64,000 bases of DNA from contig NZ_KB900614.1 in NCBI RefSeq assembly GCF_000379065.1, positions 766,107 to 830,106 of the forward strand, written 5' to 3'. This DNA is from Salinispora mooreana (GTDB lineage Bacteria; Actinomycetota; Actinomycetes; Mycobacteriales; Micromonosporaceae). Both the position numbers and the translations under genes were made by a program. Positions 51,417 to 56,703 of this stretch are shown here, one piece after another. The notes beneath the pieces were generated by a model, which was not told where the DNA came from, did not search any database, and saw nothing but the letters and a program-made list of their open reading frames with translations. Numbering within the stretch: position 1 is the first letter of the stretch; each line of letters begins with the position of its first letter.

Positions 51417-52763
51417 TCAGCGAGTGCTGGTCACGACCTCCCCCAGGCCGGTCGCCGCCAGCTCGGCCCGGATCAGGGCGGCGTCTCCCTCGACCACCAG
51501 CGTCAAACCCTCCGGGTGCAGGTGCGCGGCGGCGGCCGCCGAGACCTCCTCGACCTCGGCGGCGAGCAGCGCCGCCCGCAGCCGGGCATGGTAGTCGTCT
51601 GGCAGGTCGTGGACGACCAGCGTGGTCAGCGCCGCGGCGATCGCCCGCGGCGTCTGCAACTCGACCGAGAGCTGGCCGGCCAGCCAGGAGCGGGCCACTG
51701 CCAGCTCCGGTTCGGTCACCCCGGTCTGCTGGGTACGGGTGATCTCGCCGACCGCCTCGACCAGGGCGGGCGCGGTCACCGCGGTCTGCACGCCGGAGCT
51801 GACCGCGAACCGCCCGAACCGGCGAGACGACACGAAGTCGCCGCGGATCCCGTACGTGTAGCCCCGCACCTCCCGGATCAGGTGGTTGAGCCGGGAGGTG
51901 AAGGCACCACCGAGTACGGTCCCGGCGAGCCGCATCGGCACATGATCGGGATGCGCACGGTGCGGCGACGGATGCCCGAGCCGCAGCGTCGACTGCACCG
52001 AACCCGGCCGGTCCACCAGGATAATCGTGCGGCCGTCGCGCGGGGTGACCTCGACCGGGCCGCCCCGGTCCACCGCGCCGCCACCGGTGCCGGCGAACGC
52101 CGTTGCCGCGAGCGCGTCCAGGTCGAGTCGCTCCAGGTCCCCGACGACGACCAGGGTGCCCGGCCGGAGGAACCACTCCGAGTGGAAGATGCGGACGTCC
52201 TCGACCTCCAGCGCGGCCACCGTCTCCGGATCGCCGTACAGCGGTCGGCCCCAGCGGTTCTCGGCGCCGAACAGGTCAGCCCGCAGCGCCGCATCGGCCC
52301 GCGGACCCGGATTCGCCCAATCCATGCGCTGGGCGGTCGCCTCGTCGTCGCGAACCCGACGAACATCGTCCGGTTCCAGCCGCGGCGTGCGCACCGCCTC
52401 GGCCAACAGCTCCACGGCGGCGGGCAGCCGGTCCACCGGTACCTGCACGCTCACCTGGAAGGAGTCCCAGTCCAGGCCGGCCACCAACTCGGTGCCGAGC
52501 GCCTCGATGGCCAGTGCGTACGCCGTCGCGTCCCGCTGCGCTGTCCCCTCTTCCAGCGCCTTGGCGAGCACCGCCCCCAGCCCCTCGCGCCCCTGTGGTT
52601 CGCGGCCGGCACCGGCATCGAGCAACAACAGCGCCACCGCCAGCGACTGCCCCGGCAGGTGCGCGGCGATCAGTTGCCCACCCGCGACACCGCGGCGAAG
52701 CACCTTCGGAAACCGGTACGGTCGGGCGGCCCCCGGACCGGGCCGGGTGCTGATCAGCGTCAT
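51417..52763 (-). CDS. M16 peptidase-like protein, non-catalytic partner
   Basis: 448 aa. M16 fold with the C-terminal R/Y pair in LNHLIREVRGYTYGIRGDF, but the HxxEH zinc motif is absent where expected (LGAVLAKALEEGT). It starts inside the stop of the active M16 gene (ATGA), so the two probably form a heterodimer, as in other bacterial M16B pairs. Confidence 0.9.
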   Translation of the reverse strand: MTLISTRPGPGAARPYRFPKVLRRGVAGGQLIAAHLPGQSLAVALLLLDAGAGREPQGREGLGAVLAKALEEGTAQRDATAYALAIEALGTELVAGLDWDSFQVSVQVPVDRLPAAVELLAEAVRTPRLEPDDVRRVRDDEATAQRMDWANPGPRADAALRADLFGAENRWGRPLYGDPETVAALEVEDVRIFHSEWFLRPGTLVVVGDLERLDLDALAATAFAGTGGGAVDRGGPVEVTPRDGRTIILVDRPGSVQSTLRLGHPSPHRAHPDHVPMRLAGTVLGGAFTSRLNHLIREVRGYTYGIRGDFVSSRRFGRFAVSSGVQTAVTAPALVEAVGEITRTQQTGVTEPELAVARSWLAGQLSVELQTPRAIAAALTTLVVHDLPDDYHARLRAALLAAEVEEVSAAAAAHLHPEGLTLVVEGDAALIRAELAATGLGEVVTSTR

Positions 52764-54052
52764 GAGCTCTCCTCGGGCAGGTAGGTCAGGGTCACCCGGT
52801 CGGCGGGGGCGAGCACCTCGGCGGCCACCGCCGCGATCTGCTCGGCGGTTACCGCCAGCCACGCCGGCAGCCGCTCGGCCGCCCGGCGCGGGTCGCCGAA
52901 CTGTGTCGCGTACCGGCCGAGGGTGTCGGCCCGGCCCTCCACCGTCGACATCTGCCGCCACCAGGCGGTGCTGAGCAACGCCTTGGCCCGGTCCAGCTCC
53001 GCGGCGGTGACCGGCACCGTGGCCAACTCGTCAACAACCTCGCCCAGCCCGGCGGCCAACCGCTCGGCCGGTACCCCGGGGCGGGCGGTGGCGGTGGCGA
53101 TCAACGGCGCCGGGGCGTATGCCAGGTCCACCCCGTACGCCCCGACCAGGTCCGGCTGCGCGATCCGTTCCCCGTCGGCGAGCCGTTGGTAGAGCCGGCT
53201 GCCCCGCCCACTGCCGAGGACCGTGGCGAGCACGCTGGTCACGTCATAGCCGGCGGTGCCGAACGGGTGGGTACGGTGCGCGACGTACACCCGGGGCGCG
53301 GGAACCTCGGTGATGACCGTCTCCGTCGTCGCCACGCCGGTGCCGGAAACGTGCTGGCCCGCCGGCGCGGCCGGGATCTCCGGTCGGGATGGGATCGCGC
53401 CGAAGTACTTCTCCGCCAGGGCGAAGACCTCAACGGCGGAGGTGTCGCCGACGACCGTGAGAACAGCGTTGTTCGGCGCGTAGTACGCGGTGTGAAACGC
53501 CTGGAAGGTGGGGAGGTCGGCGGCGTTCAGGTCGGCCATCGAGCCGATCGTCGCGTGGTGGTACGGGTGGCCGGGCGGGTAGAGCAGCGGCAGCAGCCGC
53601 AGCCACGCGTCGCCGTACGGGACGTTCTCGTAGCGCTGCCGTCGCTCGTTCTTGACCACGTCCCGCTGGTTGTCCAGGGTCTCCTGGGTCAACGCCGGCA
53701 CCAGCCCGCCCATCCGGTCGGCCTCGAGCCAGAGGGTCAGCTCAAGGTGCTCGGCGGGGACCGTCTCGAAGTAGTTGGTGCGGTCCGGGTTGGTGGTGGC
53801 GTTGAGGGACCCACCACACCCCTGGACCAGCTTCATGTGCTCGGTCTTCGCCACGTTGGTCGAGCCCTCGAACATCAGGTGCTCGAAGAGGTGGGCGAAG
53901 CCGGTCTGCCCCTCCGGCTCGTGCCGGGAGCCGATGTCGTACCAGAGGTTCACGGCCACGGCTGGGGCGGTGCGGTCCTCGCTCACCACCACGCGCAGGC
54001 CGTTGTCCAGTCGGGTCGTCTCGATGGGCCAGGGAAAACCGCTGTCGGGCAT
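52760..54052 (-). CDS. M16 zinc peptidase, catalytic partner
   Basis: 430 aa. Inverted zinc motif in GFAHLFEHLMFEGSTNV (HxxEH) with the downstream Glu in the DNQRDVVKNERRQRYEN stretch. Processing-peptidase-like; bacterial M16B relatives degrade or process small peptides. The neighbour supplies the R/Y pair domain. ATG start; no signal peptide. Confidence 0.92.
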   Translation of the reverse strand: MPDSGFPWPIETTRLDNGLRVVVSEDRTAPAVAVNLWYDIGSRHEPEGQTGFAHLFEHLMFEGSTNVAKTEHMKLVQGCGGSLNATTNPDRTNYFETVPAEHLELTLWLEADRMGGLVPALTQETLDNQRDVVKNERRQRYENVPYGDAWLRLLPLLYPPGHPYHHATIGSMADLNAADLPTFQAFHTAYYAPNNAVLTVVGDTSAVEVFALAEKYFGAIPSRPEIPAAPAGQHVSGTGVATTETVITEVPAPRVYVAHRTHPFGTAGYDVTSVLATVLGSGRGSRLYQRLADGERIAQPDLVGAYGVDLAYAPAPLIATATARPGVPAERLAAGLGEVVDELATVPVTAAELDRAKALLSTAWWRQMSTVEGRADTLGRYATQFGDPRRAAERLPAWLAVTAEQIAAVAAEVLAPADRVTLTYLPEESS

Positions 54053-54145: not shown

Positions 54146-55297
54146 TCAGCGGAACGGGCCGCGTACCTCGTAGGTGATGCCGCCCGAGGACGATCCGGAG
54201 GTGCCGCGCTGAGACGAGAAGTAGAACCGGGTGCCGTCGGGGGAGAACGCCGGACCGCAGATCTCTGACCGGGACTGACCGGTGATCCGCAGGAACGGGG
54301 CGACGACCTCGTCCGGGGTAATGATGTTGATCTCCATGTTGCCGCCGTCCTCGGCGACGTAGAGGTCACCGCCGGGCGTACCGGTGATGTTGTCCACCCC
54401 GGTCAGCGGTGCGGTGCCGGAGACCAACGAGTCGTCGTACGCCAGGTCGATGCGCTCGTTGACCGCGTCGTAAGCCCAGACCCGGTTGTCCCCCTTCGTG
54501 GTGAACCAACAGGTCCCGCCGGCGTACCAGCAGCCCTCTCCGCCGTTGAACCGCTTCGCCCCGGAGACCTGATCTCGGGTGTACGTCGGCGAGCCGTCCG
54601 GGTCGGGCACCGGGGTCCAGGAGACCGGCCCGCTGGTGGCGGTGCCAGCCACCAGCACCTCCAGGGTGCCGGCCGAGAGGTCACCCCAGGTCGTCGGCCG
54701 GAACCGGTAGAGGCAGCCGTCGCTCTCGTCCTCGGTGAGGTAGACCACCTGCCGATCTGGATCGCAGGCGGCAGCCTCGTGCTTGAACCGACCCATCGCG
54801 TCCCGCCGAAAGGCGTTCGCGCCACCGGTAGGGTCGGTCTCGTAGACGTAGCCCCGGCTGACCTCCTCGCAGGAGAGCCACGTCTGCCACGGCGTCGCCC
54901 CGCCGGCGCAGTTCTGCCGGGTGCCCGACAGGATCTGGTAGGCCGAGGCGACGCTGCCGTCGGCGTGGAACCGGATCGCCGACGCGCCGCCACCCGGGGT
55001 GATCTCCGAGTTGGAGACGTAGATCCAGCCGGCACCGGCGACGAAGCAGGCGCCGCCGTCGGGCGCGTCGTGCCACGGGTACGCGGTACCGGTGACGGCC
55101 TGCCGGGAGCGGGCCACGATCCGACTGGTGAATCCCACGGGTAGCTGGATGCCCAGGGCGTCGGCCGACTGCAGGGGCCCGTAGGGGCTCTCCCCAGGCT
55201 GGGCGGGGTCGGCCAGTGCGGCGCCGGCCCAGAGGCTGCCGGAGAAGGCGGCGGCGCCACCGGCGACGCCGGCGCGGAGCAGAGTACGACGATCCAT
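54146..55297 (-). CDS. Tat-exported PhoX/DUF839-like protein
   Basis: 383 aa. Tat-type signal (MDRRTLLRAGVAGGAAAFSG), ATG with GGAGG upstream. The mature part is a beta-propeller of the alkaline phosphatase PhoX family: WLSCEEVSRGYVYETDP, HEAAACDPDRQVVYLTEDES, GDLYVAEDGGNMEINII. PhoX enzymes hydrolyse phosphomonoesters outside the membrane using Fe/Ca; it is at the short end of the family, so activity is uncertain. Confidence 0.85.
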   Translation of the reverse strand: MDRRTLLRAGVAGGAAAFSGSLWAGAALADPAQPGESPYGPLQSADALGIQLPVGFTSRIVARSRQAVTGTAYPWHDAPDGGACFVAGAGWIYVSNSEITPGGGASAIRFHADGSVASAYQILSGTRQNCAGGATPWQTWLSCEEVSRGYVYETDPTGGANAFRRDAMGRFKHEAAACDPDRQVVYLTEDESDGCLYRFRPTTWGDLSAGTLEVLVAGTATSGPVSWTPVPDPDGSPTYTRDQVSGAKRFNGGEGCWYAGGTCWFTTKGDNRVWAYDAVNERIDLAYDDSLVSGTAPLTGVDNITGTPGGDLYVAEDGGNMEINIITPDEVVAPFLRITGQSRSEICGPAFSPDGTRFYFSSQRGTSGSSSGGITYEVRGPFR

Positions 55298-55423: not shown

Positions 55424-55429
55424 TAGACT
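55424..55429 (+). promoter_or_regulatory. -10 box of the DAHP synthase leader transcript
   Basis: TAGACT lies 7 nt before the leader-peptide GTG, so transcription would begin at or next to the start codon. The -35 region is weak. Confidence 0.5.
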
Positions 55430-55436
55430 CACCGAC

Positions 55437-55496
55437 GTGACACGCTCGTATCGATGGTTTAGGCAGCCGGCTCTCCCGCCGGTGACCTCATCGTGA
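55437..55496 (+). CDS. Attenuator leader peptide with Tyr, Trp and Phe codons
   Basis: 19 aa, VTRSYRWFRQPALPPVTSS. Within four codons it has TAT (Tyr), TGG (Trp) and TTT (Phe); TAT and TTT are rare choices in this GC-rich genome. It is followed by a hairpin at 55478-55486/55503-55511 covering its stop and then an intrinsic terminator upstream of the DAHP synthase. This is the layout of a ribosome-mediated attenuator sensing aromatic aminoacyl-tRNAs. Confidence 0.75.
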   Translation: MTRSYRWFRQPALPPVTSS

Positions 55497-55521
55497 GCTG
55501 ACGTCACCCGCACGAGCCGGC

Positions 55522-55549
55522 AAGGCAGGAGCTTCCGCTCCTGCCTTTT
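55522..55549 (+). terminator. Intrinsic attenuator terminator
   Basis: AAGGCAGGAGC pairs with GCTCCTGCCTT (11 bp) around a TTCC loop and is followed by TTT. It is the only hairpin in the window with a clear T tract, and it lies between the leader peptide and the DAHP synthase start. Confidence 0.85.
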
Positions 55550-55605
55550 TGCGTACGAGCAGCCGGCTCTCCCGGGCACCGGCCCCGGGCACGGTCGGCG
55601 AAGGG

Positions 55606-56703
55606 ATGCCCACCGTGACCACCTCCGAGACGAACCGGATCAGCGACCAGCGGATCGACCGCGTGGTGCCGCTGACCACCCCGGCCCTGCTGCACCACGA
55701 GCTTCCCCTGGACAGTCCGCTCACCTCGGCCGTACTTGCTGGCAGACGGGCCGTCGGCCGAGTGTTGGACCGCACCGACGACCGCCTCCTGGTGGTGGTC
55801 GGCCCCTGCTCGGTGCATGACCCGGTCGCCGCCCTCGCCTACGCGCACCGCCTCCGCGAGCTCGCCGACCGGCTCGCCGACGACCTGCTCGTGGTGATGC
55901 GGGTCTACTTCGAGAAGCCGCGCTCGACCGTCGGTTGGAAGGGGCTCATCAACGACCCCGGGCTGGACGGTTCCGGTGATGTGAACACCGGCCTGCGACG
56001 GGCCCGGGCGCTCCTGATCGACGTGCTGCGCCTGGGTCTTCCGGTCGGCTGCGAGTTCCTGGACCCGATCACCCCGCAGTACATCGCCGACACGGTGGCC
56101 TGGGGCGCGATCGGCGCCCGGACGGTGGAGAGCCAGGTGCACCGTCAGCTCGCCTCCGGCCTGTCGATGCCGATCGGAATGAAGAACCGTCCCGACGGCA
56201 GCATCTCCACCGCGGTGGACGCCATCCGGGCGGCCGGCGTGCCGCACGTCTTCCCCGGCATCGACGCCTCCGGCACCCCGGCAATCATGCACACCCGCGG
56301 TAACACCGATGGCCACCTGGTGCTCCGCGGTGGTGGCAACCAGCCGAACTACGACGCCGAGTCGGTGAACGCCGCGCTGGCGCTGCTACGCGCCGCCGGG
56401 CTTCCCGAACGACTGGTCATCGACGCCAGCCACGCCAACAGCGGCAAGGATCACCGCAACCAGCCGCTTGTCGCCGCCGACGTGGCCGCCCAACTCGCCG
56501 GCGGCCAGCACGGCATCGTCGGCGTCATGCTGGAGAGCTTCCTCCTTCCGGGTCGGCAGGACCTGGACCCGACCCGGGAGCTGACGTACGGACAGTCGAT
56601 CACCGACGCCTGCATCGGCTGGGACACCACTGAGGAGGTCCTGGCCGAGCTGGCGGCCGCCGTGCGCACCCGGCGTCGGGCTCCGGCCGTCACCCCTGCC
56701 TGA
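55606..56703 (+). CDS. aroG: Type I 3-deoxy-7-phosphoheptulonate (DAHP) synthase
   Basis: 365 aa, first enzyme of the shikimate pathway. LLVVVGPCSVHDPVAAL, SMPIGMKNRPDGS, LRGGGNQPNYDAE, IDASHANSGKDH and GVMLESFLLPG are diagnostic of the AroF/G/H type. Many actinobacteria use a type II enzyme, so this is probably a second, separately regulated isozyme (inference). Expression appears to be controlled by the upstream attenuator. ATG start; a GTG three codons on is possible. Confidence 0.95.
   Translation: MPTVTTSETNRISDQRIDRVVPLTTPALLHHELPLDSPLTSAVLAGRRAVGRVLDRTDDRLLVVVGPCSVHDPVAALAYAHRLRELADRLADDLLVVMRVYFEKPRSTVGWKGLINDPGLDGSGDVNTGLRRARALLIDVLRLGLPVGCEFLDPITPQYIADTVAWGAIGARTVESQVHRQLASGLSMPIGMKNRPDGSISTAVDAIRAAGVPHVFPGIDASGTPAIMHTRGNTDGHLVLRGGGNQPNYDAESVNAALALLRAAGLPERLVIDASHANSGKDHRNQPLVAADVAAQLAGGQHGIVGVMLESFLLPGRQDLDPTRELTYGQSITDACIGWDTTEEVLAELAAAVRTRRRAPAVTPA

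Follow-up and report, generated by a model that had tools for sequence, protein, structure and literature searches.

DAHP synthase opens the route to the aromatic amino acids and, in actinomycetes, to many natural products. The closest described control system for its gene is the aroR-aroF attenuator of Corynebacterium glutamicum, described by Neshat et al. 2014 and summarized in later papers (PMC11802643, PMC7356990, PMC4046766). The leader peptide AroR carries Phe-Tyr-Phe (PMC11802643, PMC4046766); in the available text of a review, phenylalanine limitation raises transcription of the operon and tyrosine availability is without effect (PMC11802643), and the available part of another paper words aroR as translational control by phenylalanine and tyrosine (PMC7356990). 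Short peptides also precede the actinobacterial amino-acid genes trp, leuA, leuS and ilvB (PMC1262725; PMC8079986), and several of these leaders are themselves leaderless, some being described without a clear terminator (PMC1262725; for Streptomyces lividans, where leaderless leader peptides are already known, PMC8079986); as far as these sources go, they sense one amino acid or one family, and differ in this from what the codons of the leader described here suggest. In the LEU element of actinobacterial leuA, a leader peptide is likewise combined with alternative structures in which the SD of the gene takes part; that element, however, is a pseudoknot in which leucine codons pair with the SD, and the available description has no terminator hairpin between rival helices (PMC1262725). 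The same survey of actinobacteria, published in 2005, reports in the part available no conserved RNA structures for phenylalanine or tyrosine operons (PMC1262725). The uORFC-13-1 motif before Acholeplasma aroF also places an upstream ORF and a terminator 5' of this enzyme, but belongs to another phylum, has at least one Phe codon and a ribosome-binding site, and comprises 24 sequences in the available account (PMC8632094). Within open-licence papers we found no description of such a leader outside Corynebacterium; Lopatovskaya et al. 2010 and Wolf et al. 2017, the latter reportedly concerned with Actinoplanes, could hold one.

In the 64,000-nucleotide stretch of Salinispora mooreana DNA analyzed here (the window), a DAHP synthase gene is preceded by a leader of this kind, and leader-peptide control of the gene is well supported by the comparisons described below. 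The leader probably raises enzyme expression when Tyr, Trp and Phe run short. As in C. glutamicum, where control is described as ribosome-mediated attenuation, an aromatic leader peptide lies 5' of the DAHP synthase gene of an actinomycete; the C. glutamicum peptide has no Trp, whereas that of the window reads Tyr-Arg-Trp-Phe, and the likeness rests on the available published descriptions, not on RNA structure. The kind of element is known, and its breadth, the Trp codon and the wiring are new. A widespread element at the entry enzyme of aromatic amino acids and natural products, with no Rfam family above cut-off, raises the question of how leader-peptide control operates although the covarying switch helices miss the terminator and, in one group, there is no terminator at all.

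The encoded enzyme matches PF00793 in Pfam (E 1.6e-85) and TIGR00034 (aroFGH) above cut-off in NCBIfam, in agreement with the type I assignment made in an earlier note on this DNA, and it is the sole PF00793 match in the 5.2 Mb genome. The better start is GTG 55615, with 9 nt spacing from GAAGGG at 55600–55605; ATG 55606 abuts the SD. Three Micromonospora loci encode enzymes 86–91% identical to it. The same genome holds one type II DAHP synthase (PF01474; G000:C1:371536-372819, minus strand) outside the window, and none of the leader-model matches listed for the genome lies at that locus.

The layout of the element is given in Table 1. The earlier note had recognized here a TANNNT box, a leaderless 19-codon ORF, a hairpin across its stop codon and an 11-bp stem with a T tract, all of which are present; the stem has 10 bp, or 11 with the C-G pair 55532/55537, and a run of five T lies at 55546–55550. 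Its description of the TAT, TGG and TTT codons as adjacent applies to TGG and TTT, whereas the Arg codon CGA stands between TAT and TGG. On the 3' side of the aromatic codons the order is R1, P1', stop codon, R2, T, R3, R4 and SD. R1 and R3 are copies within a 16-nt direct repeat, GCAGCCGGCTCTCCCG, found at 55463–55478 within the leader ORF and at 55559–55574 after T, the core of which is kept across the Micromonospora group; neither R1 to R4 nor this repeat figures in the earlier note. The stop region 55492–55502 reads TGA-N-CTGAC and holds stop codons in two frames, the second of which is used by relatives with one extra base (e.g., L004), so that the C-terminal part of the leader is not conserved as a peptide. 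For P4a, three both-sided pair changes were counted over 47 sequences, which is not above shuffles (2.8), and 12 cells against 5.0, which is.

Table 1 Features of the leader region and the DAHP synthase gene, in window positions
Feature	Position	Strand	Basis and remarks
-10 box TAGACT	55424–55429	+	Read in sequence; 7-nt spacer to leader GTG
Leader ORF MTRSYRWFRQPALPPVTSS, 19 codons, leaderless (strong inference)	55437–55496	+	GTG 55437; TGA stop 55494–55496
Control codons TAT-CGA-TGG-TTT	55449–55460	+	TAT 55449–55451, TGG 55455–55457, TTT 55458–55460; alignment and codon choice
R1 (GCCGGCTC)	55466–55473	+	Possible partners R2 or P1' (GCCGG 55478–55482)
P2 hairpin, GGTGAC 55481–55486 / GTCACC 55503–55508, spanning the stop codon	55481–55508	+	Visible in alignment A2; no formal covariation count
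R2 (GAGCCGGC)	55514–55521	+	Possible partners R1 or R3
T, terminator-like hairpin, AAGGCAGGAG 55522–55531 / CTCCTGCCTT 55538–55547	55522–55550	+	Covariation
R3 (GCCGGCTC), same sense as R1, 3' of T	55562–55569	+	Possible partners R2 or R4
P4a hairpin CCCGGG/CCCGGG	55571–55589	+	47 sequences counted
Possible P5, CACGGT/ACCGTG, covering SD and start codon	55590–55617	+	Seen in sequence
R4 (GTCGGC), directly 5' of SD	55594–55599	+	Possible partner R3; no covariation
SD GAAGGG of DAHP synthase	55600–55605	+	Read in sequence
Type I DAHP synthase (aroF-like), 362 aa from GTG	55615–56703	+	Pfam and NCBIfam profile matches

Upstream regions were read at 169 DAHP-synthase loci, made up of 90 of 127 places, 25 of 80 loci (the other 55 having non-actinobacterial titles) and 54 of 55 new genomes (G302 was missed), and the leader is present at 142 of them. 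Clades could be assigned to 140 loci with the leader ORF, including clade A, to which the window belongs, the Streptomyces-like clade S and clade E of the Rhodococcus/Nocardia/Amycolatopsis type; two further loci, L036 (Kribbella) and L147, carry the leader outside any clade, and 29 of the 169 loci are unplaced. The 27 loci without a leader comprise 17 from one family (f18), four from Nocardiopsis/Streptosporangiales, three that are non-actinobacterial (among them L044, with 187 upstream bases) and three single cases. One leader with no R2 anchor (L123) was dropped, leaving 139, and 132 have all elements for the swap test described below; L045 was omitted from alignment A3, and L057 and L213 are apparently one record.

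Codons for Tyr, Trp and Phe are all found in 110 of 129 distinct leaders, those for Tyr and Phe in 18 and those for Tyr and Trp in one, so the aromatic codons that the earlier note expected to be conserved are indeed kept. The aromatic block reads SYRWF in the Micromonospora group, FYWF in Paractinoplanes and WYSWF in other genera of the family; YWRF or YWRY with PGG or LGG in Streptomyces, Catellatospora and Mycobacterium colombiense; and YFWF in Rhodococcus and Nocardia, with varying peptide residues around it. Its occurrence at this share of the loci, with codons for all three amino acids in most distinct leaders and nearly always as TAT and TTT, argues that the element is not a product of chance.

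Codon choice in the leaders is opposite to that in the genes: the leaders of all clades have 139 TAT against 3 TAC and 135 TTT against 21 TTC, and 30 DAHP synthase genes of the window's family alone have 0 TAT against 147 TAC and 3 TTT against 122 TTC. TA...T and the GTG start are found without exception in the Micromonospora-group alignment (47 of 47 rows). A TANNNT box lies 6–8 nt 5' of the start in 140 of 140 assigned leaders, at exactly 7 nt in 109, compared with 36 of 2498 other ATG or GTG triplets in the same regions, a count that is biased by the use of that box in picking some of the starts; the 47 of 47 comes from the alignment. An SD-like motif precedes the leader start in none of the 140 assigned leaders. 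Taken together, these observations make leaderless translation of the leader a strong inference, as the earlier note had supposed in proposing a start without a ribosome-binding site.

A covariance model spanning R1 to T was built from 62 leaders, with the window's own excluded and clade E left out. It finds a single copy in the window's genome (E 8.5e-18; next match 1.25). Under strict filters, it gave ten matches in 396 genomes of the phylum, all ten just upstream of DAHP synthase; six of these had served as training sequences, as had a duplicate record of a seventh, and three clade E genomes in the sample (G180, G255 and G266) gave no match. No Rfam family was found above its gathering cut-off, the only match being RF02651 with 21.1 bits against 111.

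Helix R1:R2 measures 8 bp in the window, and Streptomyces-like leaders extend it to as many as 15 bp. Counted together, R1:R2 and T are paired in 95.2% of cells in 42 Streptomyces-like leaders, compared with 36–44% when slid, with 10 pairs changed on both sides against 4.5 in shuffles; in 62 leaders of several clades the figures are 94.0% against 35–49%, and 11 against 6.3. In neither set did any of 500 shuffles reach as high; R1:R2 covaries strongly. A first column count with automatic placement of R1 was crude, some rows being misplaced. R1:R2 also beats swaps from other clades in 126 of 132 leaders. R2:R3 does so in 104 of 132 and beats the mean of shuffles in 130 of 132; within one clade it showed no covariation on A3, nor in helix 1 on A2 (where five rows are misaligned), and its support comes from the cross-clade swap. 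R1:R2 and R2:R3 flank T without overlapping it. At the level of compared sequences, it is the leader, its codon choice, R1:R2, T and R2:R3 that the comparison establishes.

The pairing of R3 with R4 beats the mean of shuffles in 102 of 132 leaders and swaps in only 65 of 132, and it showed no covariation, with 94.3% of cells paired against 9–60% when slid. By clade, R3:R4 lies above the mean of shuffles in 60 of 66 leaders of A–C pooled, 12 of 12 of M and 16 of 16 of E, but in only 13 of 38 of S; the pairing of R4 with the start region does so in 51 of 66, 11 of 12, 7 of 16 and 21 of 38, respectively. A hairpin P1 (R1:P1') was considered and rejected: 98% of its cells are paired in the Streptomyces-like clade, but it has no both-sided changes, as in shuffles.

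A hairpin with a T-rich tail is found in 116 of 123 leaders outside clade E, in none of the 16 leaders of clade E and in 5 of 139 shuffled regions. A simple terminator scan missed T in the window, probably owing to the overlap of its stem with the T run, and a search that tolerates such overlap finds it. All 16 clade E leaders keep R1:R2 and the R2:R3 hairpin without T, which implies that an R1:R2/R2:R3 switch can exist without a terminator. Loci with the aromatic ORF and R1/R2/R3 that lack the T-rich-tail hairpin are L041, L042, L045, L046, L051, L053, L073, L074, L148, L153, L154, L159, L205, L208, L212 and L225.

In a classical attenuator, antiterminator and terminator share bases. When partners for the arms of T were sought and compared with shuffled upstream sequence, no antiterminator common to all clades was found: the left arm reaches percentiles of 0.32–0.79 and the right arm 0.27–0.80, highest for the left arm in B and the right arm in S, whereas pairing of R2 with the leader lies at 0.94–1.00 in every clade. 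Individual clades offer candidates. In clade S, the right arm of T can pair with GGGUGGAG (94.0% of cells, 58–74% when slid), but this candidate has no both-sided changes, as in shuffles, and its −12.0 kcal/mol compares with −20.6 for T. In 10 of 16 leaders of clade B, UGCCUC of the leader faces GAGGCA at the left arm of T, with no covariation; the duplex has a mean of −18.7 kcal/mol against −20.0 for T, and it could compete in time because it forms first. A doubtful candidate in the window is AGGCAG 55461–55466 facing CTGCCT 55541–55546, although a stalled ribosome would mask it.

In fold models of the nascent RNA with no ribosome, with a ribosome at an aromatic codon or with one at the stop, the predicted probability of T has clade means of 0.84–0.98 and a lowest single value of 0.64. 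Regulation of T by ribosome position was thus rejected for these equilibrium models, in which T gave no response. R2, on the other hand, is switched in the model: it pairs with R1 when the ribosome stands at the first core aromatic codon and with R3 when it stands at the stop. This model lets only RNA 3' of the ribosome pair, so that R1:R2 at the stop is excluded by assumption; in a looser model, R1:R2 can form around a ribosome standing there. With the ribosome at the third-last aromatic codon, the modeled probability of R1:R2 is 0.56 in A, 0.98 in S (for the 30 of 38 leaders having such a codon) and 0.94 in M, falling in S and M to 0.75 and 0.82 at the second-last and to 0.02 and 0.00 at the last; clade E has a weak R1:R2 (0.24). 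For R2:R3 with the ribosome at the stop, the values are 1.00, 0.69 and 0.65 in A, S and M. In clade A, a stall at Tyr gives 0.56 for R1:R2, at Trp 0.11 and at Phe 0.00, so that Tyr alone would act as drawn here. This qualifies the claim in the earlier note that one leader senses all three aromatic amino acids: the codons fit, but in clade A the model favors R1:R2 for a Tyr stall only, and in C. glutamicum, according to the available review text, control responds to Phe limitation but not to Tyr availability (PMC11802643).

On the side of translation, a stall at the first core aromatic codon lowers the modeled opening energy of the start region by more than 0.3 in 23 of 37 leaders of A (higher in 8), 5 of 5 of A2, 21 of 38 of S (higher in 9), 10 of 12 of M (higher in 1) and 9 of 15 of E (higher in 5); in the window's own leader it is lower by 5.2 kcal/mol. 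The effect is opposite in B (8 higher, 4 lower, n = 16) and A3 (3 higher, 1 lower, n = 5). Occlusion of the SD as a general output was rejected, mean SD accessibility being flat and the opening energies mixed. Leaders of the mycobacteria type (L216–L220) have an inverted repeat, such as AGGTGCC/GGCACCT, that encloses the SD of DAHP synthase and competes with an upstream hairpin.

The explanation that we favor, and regard as fairly probable from the compared sequences and the fold models, is a leader acting in cis, through which DAHP synthase expression is tied to the supply of aromatic aminoacyl-tRNA, of the C. glutamicum aroR-aroF kind. Transcription would start at or beside GTG 55437, and the leaderless ORF would then be translated. 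With aromatic aminoacyl-tRNA in short supply, the ribosome would wait on TAT, perhaps also on TGG or TTT, just 5' of R1, and R1:R2 would form, presumably as the ON state. With good supply it would run on to the stop codon; since this codon sits between R1 and R2, the ribosome would part them, and R2 would pair with R3. T would end part of the transcripts, and R3 may act on the translation start through R4. For the output, either T terminates and the switch acts beyond equilibrium pairing, or the switch acts later, on the translation start through R3:R4. The two readings discussed next are output steps within this explanation, and their probabilities are not additive to certainty.

A classical transcription attenuator of the E. 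coli trp type, in which a stalled ribosome lets an antiterminator form in place of T, is what the earlier note had proposed. Its conserved aromatic leader peptide, terminator-like hairpin and position all stand, T being present in nearly all leaders outside clade E, and operon transcription in C. glutamicum is said in the available review text to rise under Phe limitation (PMC11802643). The exchange itself is doubtful, since the clades share no partner for either arm of T, the models predict T wherever the ribosome is placed, and the covarying rival helices flank it; furthermore, T is missing from all clade E leaders. The clade-specific candidates in B, S and the window led us to raise this reading slightly, although that in S is weaker than T and without both-sided changes and that in the window would be covered by the stalled ribosome, and it is now a possibility on the unlikely side. 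Next in our estimate, and also unlikely, comes a translational or mixed attenuator, in which the chain R1:R2/R2:R3/R3:R4/R4:start gates the start of DAHP synthase and T sets a constant level. It would account for clade E, where R1:R2 and R2:R3 are kept without T, and is consistent with the standing of R3:R4 above the shuffle mean in A–C, M and E, with a start region that is easier to open on stalling in most leaders of A, A2, S, M and E, including the window, and with the wording of C. glutamicum aroR as translational control in the available part of one paper (PMC7356990). Against it speak the performance of R3:R4 in swaps, its lack of covariation and its low count in S, together with the reversed opening energies in B and A3 and the flat mean accessibility. 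A bolder formulation, in which the position of the ribosome on the Tyr-Trp-Phe codons throws a chain of rival helices bracketing an autonomous terminator that is dispensable and absent in clade E, with the translation start or an output other than terminator/antiterminator exchange as its main output, was lowered slightly on account of the same clade-specific candidates and is offered tentatively, as the last of these three in probability.

Two further readings dispense with sensing by the ribosome. A constitutive leader, in which T and the other structures always limit expression and the peptide is incidental, would agree with the modeled formation of T whatever the position of the ribosome; it is improbable given a codon choice opposite to that of the genes and an aromatic block that is conserved despite frame changes in the C-terminal part of the peptide. 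Still less probable, to the point that we give it little weight, is a metabolite-binding riboswitch in which the ORF occurs by chance. The long conserved nucleotide stretches would suit it, but no Rfam family is over cut-off, and what the clades appear to share is codon identity and simple helices, with no evident binding junction.

Upstream of the element, the divergent gene at 54146–55297 (minus strand) encodes a PhoX-type alkaline phosphatase (PF05787) with a twin-arginine-like start, and beyond it lies an M16 peptidase gene at 52760–54052, also on the minus strand.
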